A DNA stretch of 50,871 nt, from the NCBI GenBank assembly GCA_002730525.1, contig PCAK01000021.1:1-50871 (forward strand), in the 5' to 3' direction. A program made the position numbers and the translations under genes. A model generated the notes under the pieces. It ran no database searches, was not told the origin of the DNA, and worked only from the letters and a program-made list of their open reading frames with translations. This document shows, in pieces, positions 37,283 to 46,268 of the stretch (the first letter of the stretch is position 1; every line of letters begins with the position of its first letter). This DNA is from Acidobacteriota bacterium (GTDB lineage: Bacteria; Acidobacteriota; Vicinamibacteria; Vicinamibacterales; UBA823).

Positions 37283-38572
37283 CTAGACGCCGGTCGCCTT
37301 GTAGCGCTTGATCGCCGCCACGGTGCGGTCGATCTCCGAATGCAGATTGTAGAAGTGCGGCGAGATCCGCAGGCCGTTGCCGCGGCCCGTGACGCCGATC
37401 TGCTCGTTCTCGTACAACGCATTGAAGAGGCCGCGTCCATCGAGGCCGTCGATCGCGAAGACGACGACCGCCACCGACCGCGTCGAGTCCTGGCTGGTCG
37501 AGAGCGTCACGCCGTCGATGGCGCTCACCTGCTCCATGAGTGATTGAGCCAGCTCCTGCGAGCGGGCCTGGATCGTCTTCATGCCGATCCGCTGCTGGAA
37601 CTTGAGCGCCTCGCCGAAGGCGATGATCGCGGGCTCGTCGCGCTGGCCGAAGCTCTCGAGCTTCTGGGAGATGCCGACATCGCCGCGGCCGGCGCTGAAG
37701 ATCGTGCCCCAGATCTGGTCGTGTGCCCGCTCGTTGACGAAGAGCACACCGGTTTCCTTGGGGCCGCATGGCCACTTGTGGGCGCTGCCACTGTAGAAGT
37801 CGGGCTGCATGTCGCTCAGGTCGACGTCCATCAGGCCGAAGCTCTGCGCGCCATCGACCAACGACAGCACACCGCGGTCGCGTGCGACCCGGCAGATCTC
37901 CTTCGCGGGGAAGAGGTCACCGACGGTGTTGGTGTGATGGGTGATCGCCACCAGCTTCGTCCGGCCGGTGATGGACCGCCGGACCAGGTCGACGTAGTAG
38001 TCGGCGCCCGGATGCGGACTCACGACTTCGAGTTCGGTCACGGTGAAGCCGTAGCGCTTCGCCTTCTCCTTCCACGCCGTGTTGTTGCTCGGGTGGTTCT
38101 GGTTGAAGATGATGACCTCGTCGTCGGCCGTCAACTCGACGCCGCTCGAGACGAGGTTGTTGGCCTCGCTCGTGTTCCGCGTGATGACGATCTGTTCCGG
38201 CGTCGTGTGGAGGAACTCGGCCAGGAGCTTCCGCGTGTTGATCTTGCCGGCGCTCATCTTGCCGCGATTCTGGAACGACGCGTCCCGGTCGATGTCCTTG
38301 GTGTTCTCGTACATCGCCTCGATGACCGGCAGCGACGACGGGCACAGGTTGGCCGCGTTCATGACGCTGACGTCCATTGGCATCAGGAACTGTTCGCGTA
38401 CCGAGCGCCAGAACTCCTCGTCGGGCGCGGCCGGGGTCTGGGGCAACGGCGCCGGTCGCTCGAAGGCGAGTCCGGTTCGGCCGAGCAGAGCGGCCGAGCC
38501 GCCGGCGGCCAGAAGTCGGGCAAAGCTACGCCGGCTGATGCCGTTGCTATCAGGTCGTGCATGCGCGGTCAT
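37283..38572 (-). CDS. Tat-exported class V aminotransferase-fold PLP enzyme
   Basis: A 429-residue protein. The ATG at 38572 follows a GAAGGAGAT ribosome binding site and opens a twin-arginine signal (ISRRSFARLLAAGGSAALL, residues 12-30). The rest is a fold-type I PLP enzyme of the class V group (cysteine desulfurase/kynureninase/isopenicillin-epimerase-like). Visible motifs include TRNTSEANNLV, THHTNTVGDLFP, the LVDGAQSFGLMDVD aspartate segment and the PLP lysine K266 in SAHKWPCGPKETG. There is no conserved desulfurase active-site cysteine loop that I can recognise. The substrate is unknown. Folding with cofactor before export would explain the use of Tat. Confidence 0.87.
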   Translation of the reverse strand: MTAHARPDSNGISRRSFARLLAAGGSAALLGRTGLAFERPAPLPQTPAAPDEEFWRSVREQFLMPMDVSVMNAANLCPSSLPVIEAMYENTKDIDRDASFQNRGKMSAGKINTRKLLAEFLHTTPEQIVITRNTSEANNLVSSGVELTADDEVIIFNQNHPSNNTAWKEKAKRYGFTVTELEVVSPHPGADYYVDLVRRSITGRTKLVAITHHTNTVGDLFPAKEICRVARDRGVLSLVDGAQSFGLMDVDLSDMQPDFYSGSAHKWPCGPKETGVLFVNERAHDQIWGTIFSAGRGDVGISQKLESFGQRDEPAIIAFGEALKFQQRIGMKTIQARSQELAQSLMEQVSAIDGVTLSTSQDSTRSVAVVVFAIDGLDGRGLFNALYENEQIGVTGRGNGLRISPHFYNLHSEIDRTVAAIKRYKATGV

Positions 38573-38670
38573 GTCGATCTCCTTCGATCGTGAACATGGG
38601 TCGGGTACGGCCGACAGCATACACCCATTTGGTGGGCGCGTACCGCCCACTGGGTGGAGAGGGTAGGGGG

Positions 38671-39399: not shown

Positions 39400-40716
39400 C
39401 TAGCGGATCAGCAGGATCCGTTCGTTGGCGGGGTAGAGCCACTCGACGCCGCGGACGGTGAGCACGGCGTCGTCCTCGAGCGGGATCCGCACCTTCGCAT
39501 CGCCCCATTCCGGGACGGCGGTGTAGGCGAACAGCTCGATCGAGAGCAGGTTGGTCGGGCGCAGGGTGTATTCGATCCGCACCGGGTTGAAGAACGCAAT
39601 CGACGGGCCGATGCCGTGGCCGGAGTTGCCAACCGAGTGCGACCCGACGACGACATCGGTGATGGCTGGGTCGTCGCTCGGCTGGTTGAAGGCGATCTTC
39701 TGAAACCCGGCCGCTGCCAGGGCGGTGTAGATCTCCTGTTCGGCCTGCGCGGCGGAGATGCCAGGTCGGATCGTCTCGGTGATGATGGCGCGCGCCTCCC
39801 GGCCCTTGTCGAAGGCGTGCTGGAAACTGGCCGGCGCATCGGATTCGCCCTCCTCGAGCACATAGGCAATCCGCTTCATGTCGGTGTACATGTTCAGGTA
39901 GCCGACGCCCCAATCGATCATCAGCAGGTCGCCCCGCCGGATGATCCGGCGATTCGATGTCGCGGCGATGCCGTCCGGGCCGGTGACGTAGACCGACGGC
40001 ATGCCAAACGACGTGTCGAGGCCGCGTGCGAGGAGCTGATCGAGCATCCACCACGCGACATCCTCGAGCATCGTGACGTTCGGCGTGATGACCTCGTTCG
40101 AGAATGCCCGCTCGGCGATCTCGCGGGAGATCTCACCGGCCTCGGCGAACGCCGCGATTTCGGTCGTCGTGCGGCGCGACCGGAAATCGGAGACGAGCTT
40201 CTCGGCCGAGACGAGGCGGGCGGCGTACGGCTCGCCCAGGGTTTCGACGAGTTGCTGGTGGCCGGTATATGTCAGGTTGTCGACTGGGCCGATCGCCCGT
40301 GACGTGTTGATCCCGATCCGCTGGGGGTCACGCTCGCGCACGAATTCGGCCAGCCGGTCGGCCGACTCGAAGAGGTCGTAGGCGCCCGACTCGCGGATCC
40401 GATAGCCGTTGATGCCGAGGGCCGCCCGCTCGATCCGGTCGCCGCCCCGGTCGGTGAAGACGTAGTAGCCGGTGCCGCCGGCATAGCCTTGGCCGAAGTC
40501 GAGCCAGAGCGTCCCGTAGTTGGCCTCGCGGATCATCGTGATCCACATGTCGATCCGGTTCTCCCGCATCGCCTCGGGGAGAACCTGGTCGAACTTCTCG
40601 CGACGGATCTGGTTCAGCCGCTCCCACCGGCGCCGTGCCTCCTGCGCCTCGGCGGGGAAGTCTCCCCATCCGAGGAGGACGACGAGACAGGCCGCGATGA
40701 TCTTGATACTGCGCAC
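39400..40716 (-). CDS. exported M24-family (Xaa-Pro peptidase-like) protein
   Basis: A 438-residue protein. The GTG at 40716 is chosen over an ATG 30 bases upstream: it starts one base after the upstream stop codon and directly opens a signal peptide (IKIIAACLVVLLGW, cleavage near AEAQ). An N-terminal creatinase-type domain is followed by the pita-bread M24 domain. Metal ligands are visible as the two aspartates in LMIDWGVGYLNMYTDMK, the histidine in SVGNSGHGIGPS, the glutamate in LLSIELFAYT and the one in VRGVEWLYP. It is the second gene of an operon with the triple-amidohydrolase protein, suggesting joint degradation of peptides in the periplasm. Confidence 0.87.
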   Translation of the reverse strand: MRSIKIIAACLVVLLGWGDFPAEAQEARRRWERLNQIRREKFDQVLPEAMRENRIDMWITMIREANYGTLWLDFGQGYAGGTGYYVFTDRGGDRIERAALGINGYRIRESGAYDLFESADRLAEFVRERDPQRIGINTSRAIGPVDNLTYTGHQQLVETLGEPYAARLVSAEKLVSDFRSRRTTTEIAAFAEAGEISREIAERAFSNEVITPNVTMLEDVAWWMLDQLLARGLDTSFGMPSVYVTGPDGIAATSNRRIIRRGDLLMIDWGVGYLNMYTDMKRIAYVLEEGESDAPASFQHAFDKGREARAIITETIRPGISAAQAEQEIYTALAAAGFQKIAFNQPSDDPAITDVVVGSHSVGNSGHGIGPSIAFFNPVRIEYTLRPTNLLSIELFAYTAVPEWGDAKVRIPLEDDAVLTVRGVEWLYPANERILLIR

Positions 40717-40717
40717 T

Positions 40718-43700
40718 TTACTGCTGCGGCCGGGGCCGTCCGCCATACTGCTCCCAGAGGCGCGTGTGGTGCGTCTCGAGACTGACTTCCTGGCCGCGGA
40801 TGAGCACGTGTTTCACCTGCGTCGGAATGTCGAGCAGGTCCCCTTCCGAGACGACGAGGTTCGCGATCATCCCTTCCTCGACCGAGCCGTAGAGGTCGCC
40901 GATGCCCAGGAGCTCGGCCGCGCCGCGCGTCAGGGCATGCCAGGCGGCGTCGCGTGGCAGGCCGAAGGCGACACCGAGCGCGGCGTGGTCCGGCAGGTTG
41001 CGCGCCGCGGAGGCGCCGCCGGTCCGGAAGGCGAACTGGACCCCGGCGTCGTGCAGCAGCTTCGCCGTGACGAAGATGGAGTCGTAGGGATCTCCGTCGG
41101 CCGGCTGGGCCTGAATCGGGCCCAGGATCACCGGCACGCCGGCTTCGGCGATCTCGTCGACCACCTTCCAGACGTCGCGCGTCCCGGCCAGAATCCCCCG
41201 AAGCTGGAACTCCTCGAGGAACGCCAACGCCGCCTTGATGCCGTCCTCGGTCGACGCCTCGAGAACGACCGGCAGTTCACCCATGACCACCGGCACGAGG
41301 GCATCCAGCGTGTAGGTCTGCTCGGTCGGCGCGATCATGCCCGCGGCCAGTGCGCCGGCGTGCGCGCGCGCCCGGTGCATCCAGTCGCGCAGCGTCGCGA
41401 GCTGCTCATCCACGGCGTCCTGGGTCGAAGGACCTCCGCCGCCGCCGCCGGGACCGCCGCCACCGCCCCCGATCTCGGGGAAGTTGATATGCATCGCCAG
41501 TGGGCTGCGTGCGACCACCTCCGGACCGGTCCAGCCCGCCATGTCGATGAGGGCGCTCTGGCCCTGGATGAGGCCGCCCGCGGGCGCGGCGATCGCGGTG
41601 GTGACGCCGTTGGCGCGCGCGATCGGGATCATCTCGGAGTCGGGATGGATCGCCACCGAGGCCTTCACGTGGCTGTTGATCTCCTCGATCTCCCTCGTGT
41701 CGTTCGTCTCACTCACGGCGCCGATCTCGGAGAGCCCGACCGAGGTGCCGGCGTTGATCATTCCCGGCGATACCGTCATGCCCGCGGCGTCGATGACCTG
41801 CGCATCATCGGGCACGCGGACGTCCTCACCGACGGCGGTGATCCGACCGCCCTGGATGATGATCGTCCCGCGCTCGATTGGCGCGCCCGTCATCGTGAGG
41901 ATCCGCCCGCCCACGATGGCGATTGGCGTCGTGTCGTCGGTCAGCATCGGCTCGGCGACGTCGCCGTAGCTCGCCGGCATCAGCTCGGCGCGGACGGCGG
42001 GGGGCAGCGTGGGCGGCGTCCAGTCGGCGATCCGGGCGTTCGGGCTGTCGACGTCCTGCTGAATGCCGCCCTCACCACCACCGGCCGGCGCCTCTGGCGT
42101 CAGCGTCGACAGGGCATCTTCGGTCGTTTCGACCTGGCTGCGGTCGAAGTAGATCTGGCCCTCGATGAGGGTGTACTGGACGCGCGTATTGCCCACGAAC
42201 GGATGCGCCGTGAAGATGGCGAGGTCACCGTCCTTCCCGACCTCGATCGAGCCGACGCGATCGTCGATGCCGAAGTGATTCGCGGCGTTCAGGGTGACCA
42301 ACTGGAGCGCCTCCTGCTCGGGCCCCCCGCCGTACTTCACCGCCTTGGCCGCTTCTATGTACAACCGGCGCACGCGCTCGTCCGAGTCGGAGTTCACCGA
42401 CACGGTCACGCCGCGCTCGTGCATGATCGCCATGTTGTAGGGGATGGCGTCCCACGCCTCCATCTTGTAGCCCCAGAAGTCGGTGAACGTCGACGCGCCG
42501 GCCCCGTGGGTGGCGATCTCGTCGGCCACCTTGTACCCTTCGAGGACGTGCTGCAGCGTCTTGATCCGGAATCCGAAATCCTCTGCAACCCGCAGTAGCA
42601 TCAGGATCTCGTCGGCGCGGTACGAGTGGGCGTGGACCTGGATCTCGCCCGAGACGATCTCGGACAGCGCTTCGAGCCGCAGATCGCGCCGCGGGGCCAG
42701 CGGGTCGCCGCCGCGCGCCCGCGCCCCTTCGTACTCGTCCCATTCGGCCTGGTACTCGCGCGCATCGGCGAAGCTCTTCCGGAGGAGGAACTCCACCCCC
42801 ATGCGGGTACCGGGATACCGCCGATCGACGCCCGGCGTGGCCGGGCGGCTGGCGCGCGTCGGATTCTCGCCGAGCGCGAACTTCACGCCGCGGGCGACGT
42901 CGTCGAACAGCAGTTCATCGGCCGACTTGCCCCAGCGCATCTTCAGAATTGCGTTCTGCCCACCGATCGCGTTCGCCGAGCCGTGCAAGACGTTGATCGT
43001 CGTCACGCCGCCCGCCAGCGCCCTGAAGATCGCATCGTCGCGATGGTTGATCACATCGATGATCCGGACCTCCGGCGTCACCGAGTTGACGCCCTCGTTG
43101 CCGCCGCCCTCGATCGACATGTGCGAGTGGGCGTCGAGCAGGCCGGGCGTGACCCACATGCCGGTCGCGTCGATCTCACGCGCGCCGGCGGGGATGACGA
43201 CCTGGGCATCGGGTCCGACGGCGGTGATCGTGCCGTTCTCGATCAGGACGGTGCCGTTCGAGATCGTGCCGTTCGCGGCCGTCATGATCGTGCCGTGGCG
43301 GACCGCCGTGGCCGGGACCTCGCCGCCGAGCGGACCGTAGGGGGCGCGCCGCTCCAACTCGGCGCGGCTGGGCGCCTCGGCATCGTCGTCGTCGGCGTCG
43401 TCTTCTTCTTCGTCGTCCGCGCTGGCTTGCCTGCCTCCGCGCGCGCCGTCGTCGTCTGCGTCGTAGCGGGCGCCGTCGACCCAGACCGCCTTCACGCGGG
43501 CCTCGGCGTCGAAGATCTCGCCTTCGACCGCGACGACGTTCGCCGCCTTGCCGACCTCGAGTGAGCCCAGCACGTCGTCCACGCCCAGGATCTCAGCCGG
43601 CGCGATCGTCAGCGCGCGCAGCGCGCCGTCGCGTGACAGGCCGGCGCCGACGGCGGTACGGAAGTTGTCGAGATAGTCAGCGGGATCGTCCAGGCCGGCG

Positions 43701-44776
43701 CCGGTGAACGCGACGGTGACCCCCGCCGCGTGCAGGCGGCCGGCGTTCGCCGCCGCGTCGGCGACATCCTCGGTGGTGGGATCGTCGACCGGGCTGGTGG
43801 CGAGGCCGCCGCCGAAGCCGACCGGGCCGCTGCGCGGCCGGAGGTCGAGCGAGACCAGCACGGGCTGATCGGCGGCGCGCAACGCGTCGGCGGCGCGCCA
43901 TCCCTCGACGGCGCCGCTGACGATCATGTCGAGTCCCAACTCGTCCGCGAGCTTCAGGGCGCGGCGGATCTCGTTCTCGGTCCAGGCGGTGAAGACGACC
44001 GGCTGGGCGCCACCGGCGGAGTTCTGCAGCGCCTCGAGCCCTTCGTCGTAGGCGGGGCGATCCGTCGAGGCCGGCTGCTCGCGATACCATGTCCACGCGG
44101 CGTCGTACCACTGCGCGTCGAGGTAGTGCTGGCGGATCGATGCCATCGTGCCCATCAGCGTGCCGGGGTACTCGCCGCGCAGCCGCTGGAAGCCGAGGTG
44201 CTGCGCCCACTGGCCGCGCACGACCTGATCGGTCAGGAGGCCGTCGCGCAGGGTGACGATAGTGCTCTGACCCTTGAAGACACCGAACGGCGGCGCGATC
44301 GCGGCGGCCGTGATCCCGGCGTTGCGGGCTGCCTGCAGGGCGTCGCGGTCGGCGGTGTAGGACGACACGGCCTCGAGCTGCGGCGTGAGGCCTGGCGTCG
44401 GCTCGCCGGCACGCTGGCGGGCCTGAATGGCGCGGGCCCGGGCCGCGTTGTCCTGGGGCAGCGTAGGCGGATCGGGCATGCCGAGCGCCGAGTGGGCATC
44501 CACGAATCCCGGATACAGCGTCCAGCCATCGGCGTCCATCACGATGGCGTCACCCGGGGGGTCGACGTTCGCGCCGATCGCGGCGATCTTGCCGTCGCGC
44601 AGGACGAGCGTTCCCGACGGGATCGGTCGAGAACTTACCGGCACGATGCGGGCGTTGACCAGCGCGTAGGTCGGGACGTCCGGCGCGGCCTTGACGCGCG
44701 CGGTCTGGCCGATCGCGATCGGCAGTGCCAGCAGGACGAGGGCGACGAACAGTCGCAGCGTGGTTCGACGGGCCAT
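40718..44776 (-). CDS. giant exported amidohydrolase with three tandem amidohydrolase-type modules
   Basis: A 1352-residue protein starting at the ATG at 44776 (GGAGG upstream) with a signal peptide (RLFVALVLLALPIAIG). Module 1 (about 30-445) has PGFVDAHSALG, where HxH is reduced to one histidine. An acidic Asp/Glu linker lies near 455-475. Module 2 (about 485-930) has the intact metal site: LLDAHSHM near residue 549, then VHAHSYRADE, LQHVLEGYK and VNSDSDE. Module 3 (about 945-1345) has PGMINAGTSVG, with the HxH lost. The middle module is likely the active hydrolase, perhaps an imidazolonepropionase- or dipeptidase-like enzyme. The gene is coupled to the M24 peptidase gene. Confidence 0.9.
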   Translation of the reverse strand: MARRTTLRLFVALVLLALPIAIGQTARVKAAPDVPTYALVNARIVPVSSRPIPSGTLVLRDGKIAAIGANVDPPGDAIVMDADGWTLYPGFVDAHSALGMPDPPTLPQDNAARARAIQARQRAGEPTPGLTPQLEAVSSYTADRDALQAARNAGITAAAIAPPFGVFKGQSTIVTLRDGLLTDQVVRGQWAQHLGFQRLRGEYPGTLMGTMASIRQHYLDAQWYDAAWTWYREQPASTDRPAYDEGLEALQNSAGGAQPVVFTAWTENEIRRALKLADELGLDMIVSGAVEGWRAADALRAADQPVLVSLDLRPRSGPVGFGGGLATSPVDDPTTEDVADAAANAGRLHAAGVTVAFTGAGLDDPADYLDNFRTAVGAGLSRDGALRALTIAPAEILGVDDVLGSLEVGKAANVVAVEGEIFDAEARVKAVWVDGARYDADDDGARGGRQASADDEEEDDADDDDAEAPSRAELERRAPYGPLGGEVPATAVRHGTIMTAANGTISNGTVLIENGTITAVGPDAQVVIPAGAREIDATGMWVTPGLLDAHSHMSIEGGGNEGVNSVTPEVRIIDVINHRDDAIFRALAGGVTTINVLHGSANAIGGQNAILKMRWGKSADELLFDDVARGVKFALGENPTRASRPATPGVDRRYPGTRMGVEFLLRKSFADAREYQAEWDEYEGARARGGDPLAPRRDLRLEALSEIVSGEIQVHAHSYRADEILMLLRVAEDFGFRIKTLQHVLEGYKVADEIATHGAGASTFTDFWGYKMEAWDAIPYNMAIMHERGVTVSVNSDSDERVRRLYIEAAKAVKYGGGPEQEALQLVTLNAANHFGIDDRVGSIEVGKDGDLAIFTAHPFVGNTRVQYTLIEGQIYFDRSQVETTEDALSTLTPEAPAGGGEGGIQQDVDSPNARIADWTPPTLPPAVRAELMPASYGDVAEPMLTDDTTPIAIVGGRILTMTGAPIERGTIIIQGGRITAVGEDVRVPDDAQVIDAAGMTVSPGMINAGTSVGLSEIGAVSETNDTREIEEINSHVKASVAIHPDSEMIPIARANGVTTAIAAPAGGLIQGQSALIDMAGWTGPEVVARSPLAMHINFPEIGGGGGGPGGGGGGPSTQDAVDEQLATLRDWMHRARAHAGALAAGMIAPTEQTYTLDALVPVVMGELPVVLEASTEDGIKAALAFLEEFQLRGILAGTRDVWKVVDEIAEAGVPVILGPIQAQPADGDPYDSIFVTAKLLHDAGVQFAFRTGGASAARNLPDHAALGVAFGLPRDAAWHALTRGAAELLGIGDLYGSVEEGMIANLVVSEGDLLDIPTQVKHVLIRGQEVSLETHHTRLWEQYGGRPRPQQ

Positions 44777-44833: not shown

Positions 44834-44881
44834 GCAGCACCCGACCTCCATCCACGCTGGCCGAACCCAGCGGAAAACGCA

Positions 44882-44897: not shown

Positions 44898-46268
44898 GTG
44901 ACCCGAATCGTGACAACCCGGGCCGGCTGGATCGTCGGCGCGACCCTGCTGGTGTGCGGGTCGGCGGCGGCGCAGGCTCATCGCGTGGTTCGCGTGACCG
45001 AGGCCGGTGCCCGCAACCCCAACGAGGTGTCGATCGCGATCGACCCGACCGATCCCGACCGGATCATCGCGGTGTCGAGAGCAGCCGAACGAAACGGGCG
45101 CTCGGTGAACTTCGAGTACGTGAGCGGCGATGGCGGCGCGACCTGGCGGACGCGCCGGTCCGAGAGCCCGCGCGGGCGGACGCATGGCGACGATGCCATT
45201 GCGATGGCGGCGGACGGCAGGGCGCATCATTCCTATATCTCGTTTGAAGGCCTCCGCCAGGAGCGGCCGGAGGCGCCGTCGAACGGGATCTTCGTGACGA
45301 CGACGCGCAATGGTGGCCGGTCGTGGTCGGCGCCGGTGGCGGTCCTCGACCACACGAACGCGATCACGCCGTTCGAGGACAAGCCGTACCTCGTCGTCGA
45401 CCAGGTCGCGGGGTCGCCGCATCGCAACGCGGTCTACATCGCCTGGACCCGGTTCGACGTCTACGGCAGCGCGCATCCCGACGACCGCTCGCACATCTTC
45501 GTCAGCCATTCGACCGACCGGGGCGCCACGTTCACGTCGCCGGTCCGGGTGTCGGACGTCGGCGGCGACACCCTCGACAGCGACGGCACGCTCGAAGGCG
45601 CCGTGCCCGCGGTCGGTCTGGCGGGTGAGGTCTACCTCGTCTGGGCCGGCCCGAGGGGACTCACCTTCGATCGATCGGACGACGGCGGTTGGACGTGGGG
45701 CGACGACCGGGTCATTCAGGAGACGCCCGGCGGGTGGGATATCGACGTCGATGGTTTCGCCCGGCACAACGGCATGCCGGTGACCGGCGTCGATCGGAGC
45801 GACGGCGCGCGGCGCGGCAGATTGTACGTGAACTGGATTGATGAACGGCATGGCGATCCCGATGTCTTCGTGATGTCGTCACCCGACGGCGGCGCGACGT
45901 GGTCCGACCCGGTGCGGGTCAACGACGACCCGGTGGGTAACGGTGCGGCGCAGATGTTCACCTGGATGGCCGTCGACCCGTCGGACGGCTCGGTGAACAT
46001 CGTCTTCTACGACCGGCGCGATCTCGAGGGGACGTCGACGGCCGTGACGCTGGCGCGGAGCGTGGACGGCGGCGAGACGTTCGTGAACTACACGATCGAC
46101 CTGGACGCGTTCGAGTGCAATCCGGCCGTCTTCTTCGGCGACTACACCGGCATCGACGCGCTCGACGGCCGGGTCGTGCCGGTCTTCATGCACTTCATCG
46201 ACGAGTCCGAGATGGCGGTGTCGGCGGCGATCTTCGAATTCGAGTCCGGCACCCAGCGTATCCGGTAG
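44898..46268 (+). CDS. exported BNR/Asp-box (sialidase-like) beta-propeller protein
   Basis: A 456-residue protein with a signal peptide (about 1-26, cleavage after AAAQA). Six Asp-box motifs mark the blades of a sialidase-type propeller: SGDGGATW, TRNGGRSW, STDRGATF, SDDGGWTW, SPDGGATW and SVDGGETF. The arginine triad and Tyr/Glu pair of true sialidases are not recognisable, so glycosidase activity is not claimed. The product may be a secreted binding or hydrolytic protein. The start codon is GTG. It is divergent from the amidohydrolase operon. Confidence 0.85.
   Translation: MTRIVTTRAGWIVGATLLVCGSAAAQAHRVVRVTEAGARNPNEVSIAIDPTDPDRIIAVSRAAERNGRSVNFEYVSGDGGATWRTRRSESPRGRTHGDDAIAMAADGRAHHSYISFEGLRQERPEAPSNGIFVTTTRNGGRSWSAPVAVLDHTNAITPFEDKPYLVVDQVAGSPHRNAVYIAWTRFDVYGSAHPDDRSHIFVSHSTDRGATFTSPVRVSDVGGDTLDSDGTLEGAVPAVGLAGEVYLVWAGPRGLTFDRSDDGGWTWGDDRVIQETPGGWDIDVDGFARHNGMPVTGVDRSDGARRGRLYVNWIDERHGDPDVFVMSSPDGGATWSDPVRVNDDPVGNGAAQMFTWMAVDPSDGSVNIVFYDRRDLEGTSTAVTLARSVDGGETFVNYTIDLDAFECNPAVFFGDYTGIDALDGRVVPVFMHFIDESEMAVSAAIFEFESGTQRIR

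Follow-up and report, generated by a model that had tools for sequence, protein, structure and literature searches.

A predicted exported chain of three amidohydrolase-fold modules in an Acidobacteriota bacterium: one complete metal site and two candidate partner pseudoenzymes

Why would one protein carry three copies of the amidohydrolase fold when a complete metal site is present in only one of them? The question is raised by a gene on contig PCAK01000021.1 of an Acidobacteriota bacterium (assembly GCA_002730525.1), of which positions 1 to 50,871 were analysed and are referred to here as the window. The gene lies on the minus strand, where an open reading frame extends from ATG at position 44776 to TAA at 40720-40718 and encodes a product of 1352 residues. 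An earlier note, made from the sequence alone, had described this product as an exported triple amidohydrolase fusion in which only the middle module is catalytic, the outer ones possibly being regulatory or substrate-binding pseudoenzymes; all three module openings that it quoted are found in the frame. The modules, termed M1, M2 and M3, are each ~410-425 residues long. As judged from aligned residues, M2 is the sole module with a complete metal site. The triple fusion represents one form that an older three-module unit can take, and the analysis suggests a lasting partnership of its two dead modules with the live enzyme.

A Pfam scan of the whole chain identified Amidohydro_1 in three stretches, and the best solved relative of the chain was 3ooq, an amidohydrolase of Thermotoga maritima MSB8 whose structure title assigns it no function. 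Family profiles were built from 69 M1, 70 M2 and 72 M3 rows. The top solved match of all three profiles was 3ooq, nearly over the full length (E-values of 2.8e-60, 9.4e-91 and 9.1e-74 for M1, M2 and M3, respectively); it covers profile positions 14-413 of 424 in M1 and 10-400 of 414 in M3. In profile-profile comparisons with M2 (hhalign), M1 was aligned with a probability of 100 over 379 columns and M3 with the same probability over 378 columns. Since the profiles match 3ooq and M2 end to end, the outer segments are amidohydrolase relatives over their full length, and to the extent that sequence can show it, an amidohydrolase fold is likely for them. The cut-off of the NCBIfam Xaa-Pro dipeptidase model NF051886 was not reached (121.5 bits versus 500).

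In the amidohydrolase superfamily, metal ligands are provided by an HxH motif on strand 1, histidines on strands 5 and 6, and an aspartate on strand 8. M2 fits this pattern (HxH, His, His, Asp). In a joint alignment, its five core ligands H550, H552, H717, H743 and D797 are kept in all 70 M2 rows and E637 in 69 of them. These rows represent triad-type M2, the loci L124 and L126 included (L and G numbers denote loci and genomes); the module alignments exclude pair-type loci, which have no M1 (13 of 83 M2 rows and 13 of 85 M3 rows), as well as fragments, near-copies and the loci whose sequence contains ambiguous bases (L042-L044, with their genome copies). At the HxH site the window reads H-S-A in M1 and G-T-S in M3, and the downstream ligands are gone in both, so that M1 retains just the first His of the motif and M3 retains no ligand. 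The same loss is seen across the alignment: among the 69 M1 rows, 45 have none of the five ligands, 19 have one and five have two, while in the 72 M3 rows these numbers are 57, 14 and one. The maximum is thus two in either module, and the residues occupying the lost positions vary widely. Positions with His or Cys conserved at 80% or more number eight in M2, none in M1 and one, near the C-terminus, in M3. The conservation scan of the module alignments revealed no conserved histidine cluster replacing the ligands in M1 or M3, and hence nothing that would point to a His-based site built anew. The window residues and the row counts therefore agree with the earlier note that only the middle module keeps HxH and the downstream ligands, and at the residue level its description of the outer modules as pseudoenzymes holds, no metal site rebuilt from other His or Cys residues being visible.

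The distribution of the modules was analyzed in 60 relatives, of which 37 matched at 1e-20, and in 149 genomes spread over the phylum, of which 67 matched at 1e-60 (five of these, G084, G107, G151, G162 and G167, together with G124, are not among the wide-flank loci). Below, fused modules are joined by a tilde and separate genes are divided by a slash. M2 is present in all 58 phylum-survey loci and M3 in 57, the single locus without M3 ending near a contig edge. All three modules were found at 45 of the 58, as unfused genes (19 loci), with M1~M2 (14) or with M2~M3 (12). Over all classified loci the states are M1/M2/M3 (29), M1~M2/M3 (16), M2/M3 (15), M2~M3/M1 (13), M1/M2~M3 (11), M1~M2~M3 (7) and a few others; the modules are always on one strand, a mixed-strand locus occurring in none of them. 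Parsimony on the M2 tree requires four changes for the M1~M2 fusion and six for M2~M3, gains and losses not being distinguished. Full fusions were found in the window's family and, separately placed on the M2 tree, in G010 (L057). The three-module set occurs as a triple fusion in these two places, and elsewhere in the phylum mostly as separate or partly fused neighbours. Within the window's family, full-length fusion homologues could be distinguished in G001-G008, at 72-95% identity, with the exception of G006 (L043/L056), whose copy is interrupted within M3, probably by a frameshift, on a contig with ambiguous bases. The 95% identical copy belongs to UBA2161, and the named near relatives are mostly metagenome-assembled genomes (MAGs) of Acidobacteriota. 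Where separately encoded modules were inspected by eye, each gene begins with its own N-terminal hydrophobic stretch, which points to export of all three products.

Several other arrangements were observed. In L098 (4049-8257, G181), M1, M2 and M3 lie in one frame and are separated by single stop codons (TAG), which places these genes one step short of fusion. L142 (G065) and L089 (G020) contain arrays in which several M2-like modules, among them an M2~M2 fusion, accompany an M3. A second tandem type, present in L084-L088 and L090 (e.g. L087, 2138-4626), consists of an M2-like module (HxH, His, His, Asp) beside a paralogue reading HV..T.G; its live module has no Glu, and the partner in L090 reads differently. 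This is another live-dead pair. Locus L042 (NZSH01000063.1) is titled Woeseiaceae, a gammaproteobacterial name, and carries a 74% identical fusion with neighbours as in the acidobacterial family; it is probably mislabelled.

Loss of ligands has not been accompanied by loss of constraint. Where all three modules are present (66 loci), pairwise identity averages 0.37 for M1, 0.56 for M2 and 0.42 for M3. In the window's family, the ratio of nonsynonymous to synonymous substitution rates (dN/dS), taken from the six of ten pairs with dS <1.7 (the other four being saturated), is ~0.10-0.15 for M1, 0.03-0.10 for M2 and 0.07-0.10 for M3. By this measure, M1 and M3 are under purifying selection. Genomes that have two or three triads carry widely divergent copies. 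In G088 and G060, which have two triads each, each of the four loci has one and the same nearest locus in other genomes whether M1, M2 or M3 is compared, and at least in recent cases the module sets appear to be inherited as cassettes.

In a first tree of 113 rows, a branch set M1 apart from all other rows, and the separation of M2 and of M3 was almost complete. A second tree comprised 82 rows from 28 loci together with six plasmid-record loci; modules with all five ligands were counted as live, and L158 was excluded. Here, the dead and live rows (48 and 34, respectively) are divided by a single split with an SH-aLRT support of 94. On the dead side, M1 (18 rows, support 100) joins triad M3 (18 rows, support 98) with a support of 89, so M1 looks, from this grouping, like a duplicate of an older dead partner. 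Pair-type groups recur on the live and dead sides, e.g. L078/L081 with alphaproteobacterial L159/L163, and half-way pair-type dead partners exist, an example being L149_M3, where three of the five ligands remain. As the tree was made quickly and has long branches, fast-evolving dead rows may have attracted one another. Beyond Acidobacteriota, a MAG of Gemmatimonadaceae (L045) has the triad as separate genes, and seven plasmid records carry an M2 relative (L158-L164). Two of the latter, both alphaproteobacterial, contain a live-dead pair (L159 and L163), and the Hymenobacter record L158 contains an apparent frameshifted triad.

We consider it probable that the gene encodes an exported metal-dependent amidohydrolase in which the dead modules are obligate structural or assembly partners of live M2 within one complex. 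Repeated fusion, tight linkage and constraint make a scaffold the most likely role of these modules. The product would be one periplasmic chain in which the same fold occurs once in working and twice in dead form. M1, M2 and M3 would assemble into a joint complex, as a 1:1:1 pseudo-heterotrimer or as a larger oligomer made of it, which would have replaced a former homo-oligomer of the catalytic fold, and the dead modules may lend stability to the active site of M2 or complete it. Fusion would fix the stoichiometry of the modules and spare two signal peptides. A fuller historical version is offered tentatively, and we would sooner doubt than accept it as a whole: the dead lineage would have split once from the live paralogue, travelled with it through Acidobacteriota, Gemmatimonadota, Bacteroidota and Alphaproteobacteria, and doubled into two different dead subunits, forming an exported enzyme that has a single working site among three equivalent ones and depends on both dead subunits. 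Repeated independent fusions would account for the full series, seen in natural genomes, between three separate genes and a single chain.

A number of observations weigh against an obligate partnership. A lone live module without partners occurs in four of the seven plasmid records (L160, L161, L162 and L164; Bacillota and Actinomycetota), which indicates that the fold can work alone. In 13 of the 58 survey loci the three modules are not found together, and in G083 and G092 (L124 and L126) M2 adjoins M3 and the M1 match is on another contig, an arrangement in which M1 may work in trans. The deeper copies in G010 and G067 disagree between modules on their nearest locus (e.g. L115 and L059), and correlations between modules are confounded by the species tree. 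No accessory gene is recurrent phylum-wide, as neighbour clustering placed no family near the modules in more than six loci. Two AlphaFold jobs (M1 with M2, and M2 with M3), with window rows and related loci as input and five alignment rows for the dead halves, gave a mean predicted local distance difference test score (pLDDT) of 43.4 and 44.2. A Foldseek search with these low-confidence models returned 3ooq as the top match at a template-modelling (TM) score of 0.23-0.25 by query, the outer modules not being separable. Finally, linkage, fusion and constraint are also compatible with independent functions in one pathway.

The principal alternative, close to what the earlier note had suggested, is that the dead modules bind a substrate or ligand, the metal-free barrel pocket delivering substrate to M2 or sensing its product. 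Retention of the fold over its full length would suit such a role, as would the conserved polar residues specific to the dead modules (Q216, D220 and R240 in M1; E1017, D1026, E1029 and R1054 in M3) and, in the fusion, the acidic and long linkers that permit movement. However, polar positions conserved at 80% or more are few in the dead modules (17 in M1 and 21 in M3, versus 80 in M2), and this sparseness, together with the variability of the lost-ligand positions, argues against a conserved pocket chemistry in M1 and M3. We regard ligand binding as unlikely, though worth keeping in mind, and an obligate scaffold or assembly role as more likely for the outer modules than a regulatory or substrate-binding one. 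The near-invariant acidic trio of M3 with R1054 could also be read as part of a different, rebuilt active site in M1 and/or M3, a reading that could draw on pair-type partners such as L149_M3, which retain up to three of five ligands. The near absence of conserved His and Cys columns in M1 and M3, set against the eight of M2, makes a second enzyme of this kind improbable.

There is a similarly slight chance that each module works on its own within a catabolic pathway shared with an M24 metallopeptidase, fusion serving merely for co-expression. An M24 gene adjoins the fusion in nine of nine genomes of the window's family. Other peptidase genes adjoin some triads (S9 in L075, M19 in L102 and S41/tricorn in L130), and a peptide transporter adjoins the module pair in L159. 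These peptidase and transporter neighbours are a weak hint of peptide-like substrates; from the fold and neighbours only, our guess would be a peptide-like compound or another amide or cyclic amide. Against a shared pathway, M24 stands beside the modules at no examined locus outside the window's family (flanks of L017-L037 being 1.5 kb or shorter), no other neighbour recurs throughout the phylum, and it is hard to see which step a non-catalytic module could contribute by itself. That the fusion is an assembly or annotation artefact, or a decaying relic, is in essence refuted. The window genome is fragmented (3.3 Mb in 45 contigs), and the interrupted copy of G006 could be taken in the same sense, but the full-length fusion recurs in the remaining family genomes and dN/dS is well below 1 in all modules.

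Features of the fusion gene and its co-oriented neighbour are summarized in Table 1. An alternative in-frame ATG is present at 44851, upstream of that at 44776. The latter is the better start, because it is preceded, seven bases away, by a Shine-Dalgarno-like GGAGG (44788-44784) and followed by a signal-peptide-like N-terminus that, by eye, is also found in the relatives L052 and L054. Downstream, the TAA of the fusion is followed by a single A and then by the GTG of the M24 gene at 40716-40714. The earlier note had placed translation of this peptidase right behind the fusion, which is correct for the window, with its gap of one base, but does not extend to a general rule, as the M24 frame of the closest relative (L051) opens only ~100 bases past the fused gene. 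A mechanism based on M24 was set aside, since the link is confined to the window's family among the examined loci. Two further genes were noted in the vicinity. A divergent gene encoding a BNR-repeat propeller (44898-46268, plus strand) lies next to the fusion and is found beside it in eight of nine family genomes. The gene at 37283-38575 (minus strand) encodes a Class-V aminotransferase-fold protein with an N-terminal twin-arginine-like motif, RRSFARLL; the protein scored 119.6 of 650 bits, below the cut-off, with the model of a periplasmic relative, PvdN.

Table 1. Coordinates of the fusion gene, its modules and predicted ligands, and the adjoining peptidase gene in the window.
Feature	Position	Strand	Basis
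Coding sequence of predicted exported triple amidohydrolase-fold fusion, M1~M2~M3	40718..44776	-	Open reading frame, Shine-Dalgarno-like GGAGG, Pfam, homologues
Signal-peptide-like stretch, ~30 residues, the sole one remaining in the fusion	44687..44776	-	By eye
M1, amidohydrolase-fold pseudoenzyme; H-S-A at HxH site, downstream ligands gone	43427..44701	-	Profile homology, joint alignment
Acidic M1-M2 linker	43340..43426	-	Sequence
M2, predicted catalytic module	42113..43339	-	Pfam, profile homology, ligand conservation
HxH metal-binding motif of M2 (H550, H552)	43121..43129	-	Alignment
E637 of GENP motif in M2, putative bridging ligand	42866..42868	-	Kept in 69/70 M2 rows
H717, predicted metal ligand of M2	42626..42628	-	70/70 M2 rows; aligns with His of 3ooq
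H743, predicted metal ligand of M2	42548..42550	-	70/70 M2 rows
D797, predicted catalytic Asp of M2	42386..42388	-	70/70 M2 rows
M2-M3 linker, longer than M1-M2 linker	41951..42112	-	Sequence
M3, amidohydrolase-fold pseudoenzyme, all ligands lost; near-invariant E1017, D1026, E1029, R1054	40730..41950	-	Profile homology, joint alignment
M24 metallopeptidase gene, probably co-transcribed neighbour; GTG one base past fusion stop	39400..40716	-	Sequence, Pfam

If the partner reading is true, these loci would offer a bacterial model for the passage from a homomeric enzyme to a heteromer with dead paralogues and on to a single chain, with the lone enzyme, the pair, the triad and each fusion state all available in living genomes. 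Many genes labelled just "amidohydrolase family protein" would then not be enzymes on their own, and automated pipelines that call the dead members hydrolases would be in error.

Among known systems, 3ooq is the nearest solved structure to every one of the three modules along their full length; it has the ligand set of M2 and differs in being a single catalytic module. Its locus name is presumably TM0814; we know of no dead partner of this protein, and no paper on 3ooq was found by name in the open-licence literature. The amidohydrolase prolidases/carboxypeptidases 3mtw (Cc2672), 2qs8 and 3feq/3n2c are further solved relatives of M2, with partial sequence matches only. CRMP/dihydropyrimidinase-related proteins were among the structure matches of the whole chain and of the module profiles. 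CRMPs are animal cytosolic proteins of the amidohydrolase fold whose enzyme function has been lost. They resemble the dead modules in having kept the fold without the function, and differ in not being operon partners of a live bacterial paralogue.

A triad of two dead paralogues and a live module, with all fusion states in nature, was not found described in the open-licence literature that was searched. That a dead subunit aids a live enzyme is a known principle, and a precedent exists within the superfamily itself. The aspartate transcarbamoylase of Pseudomonas aeruginosa requires an inactive dihydroorotase homologue for its activity and stability (PMC7053772). This is likewise a dead amidohydrolase-superfamily subunit needed by its partner; there, however, the active partner is an unrelated enzyme, whereas here it is a live paralogue, accompanied by two dead modules and fusible with them. 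In trypanosomatids, a catalytically dead paralogue is reported to form a hetero-oligomer with the live enzyme and to activate it, both in AdoMetDC-prozyme (PMC5201418) and in the deoxyhypusine synthase pair (PMC3663545). These pairs differ from the triad in that they are eukaryotic, have other folds and comprise one dead paralogue, which is apparently unfused.

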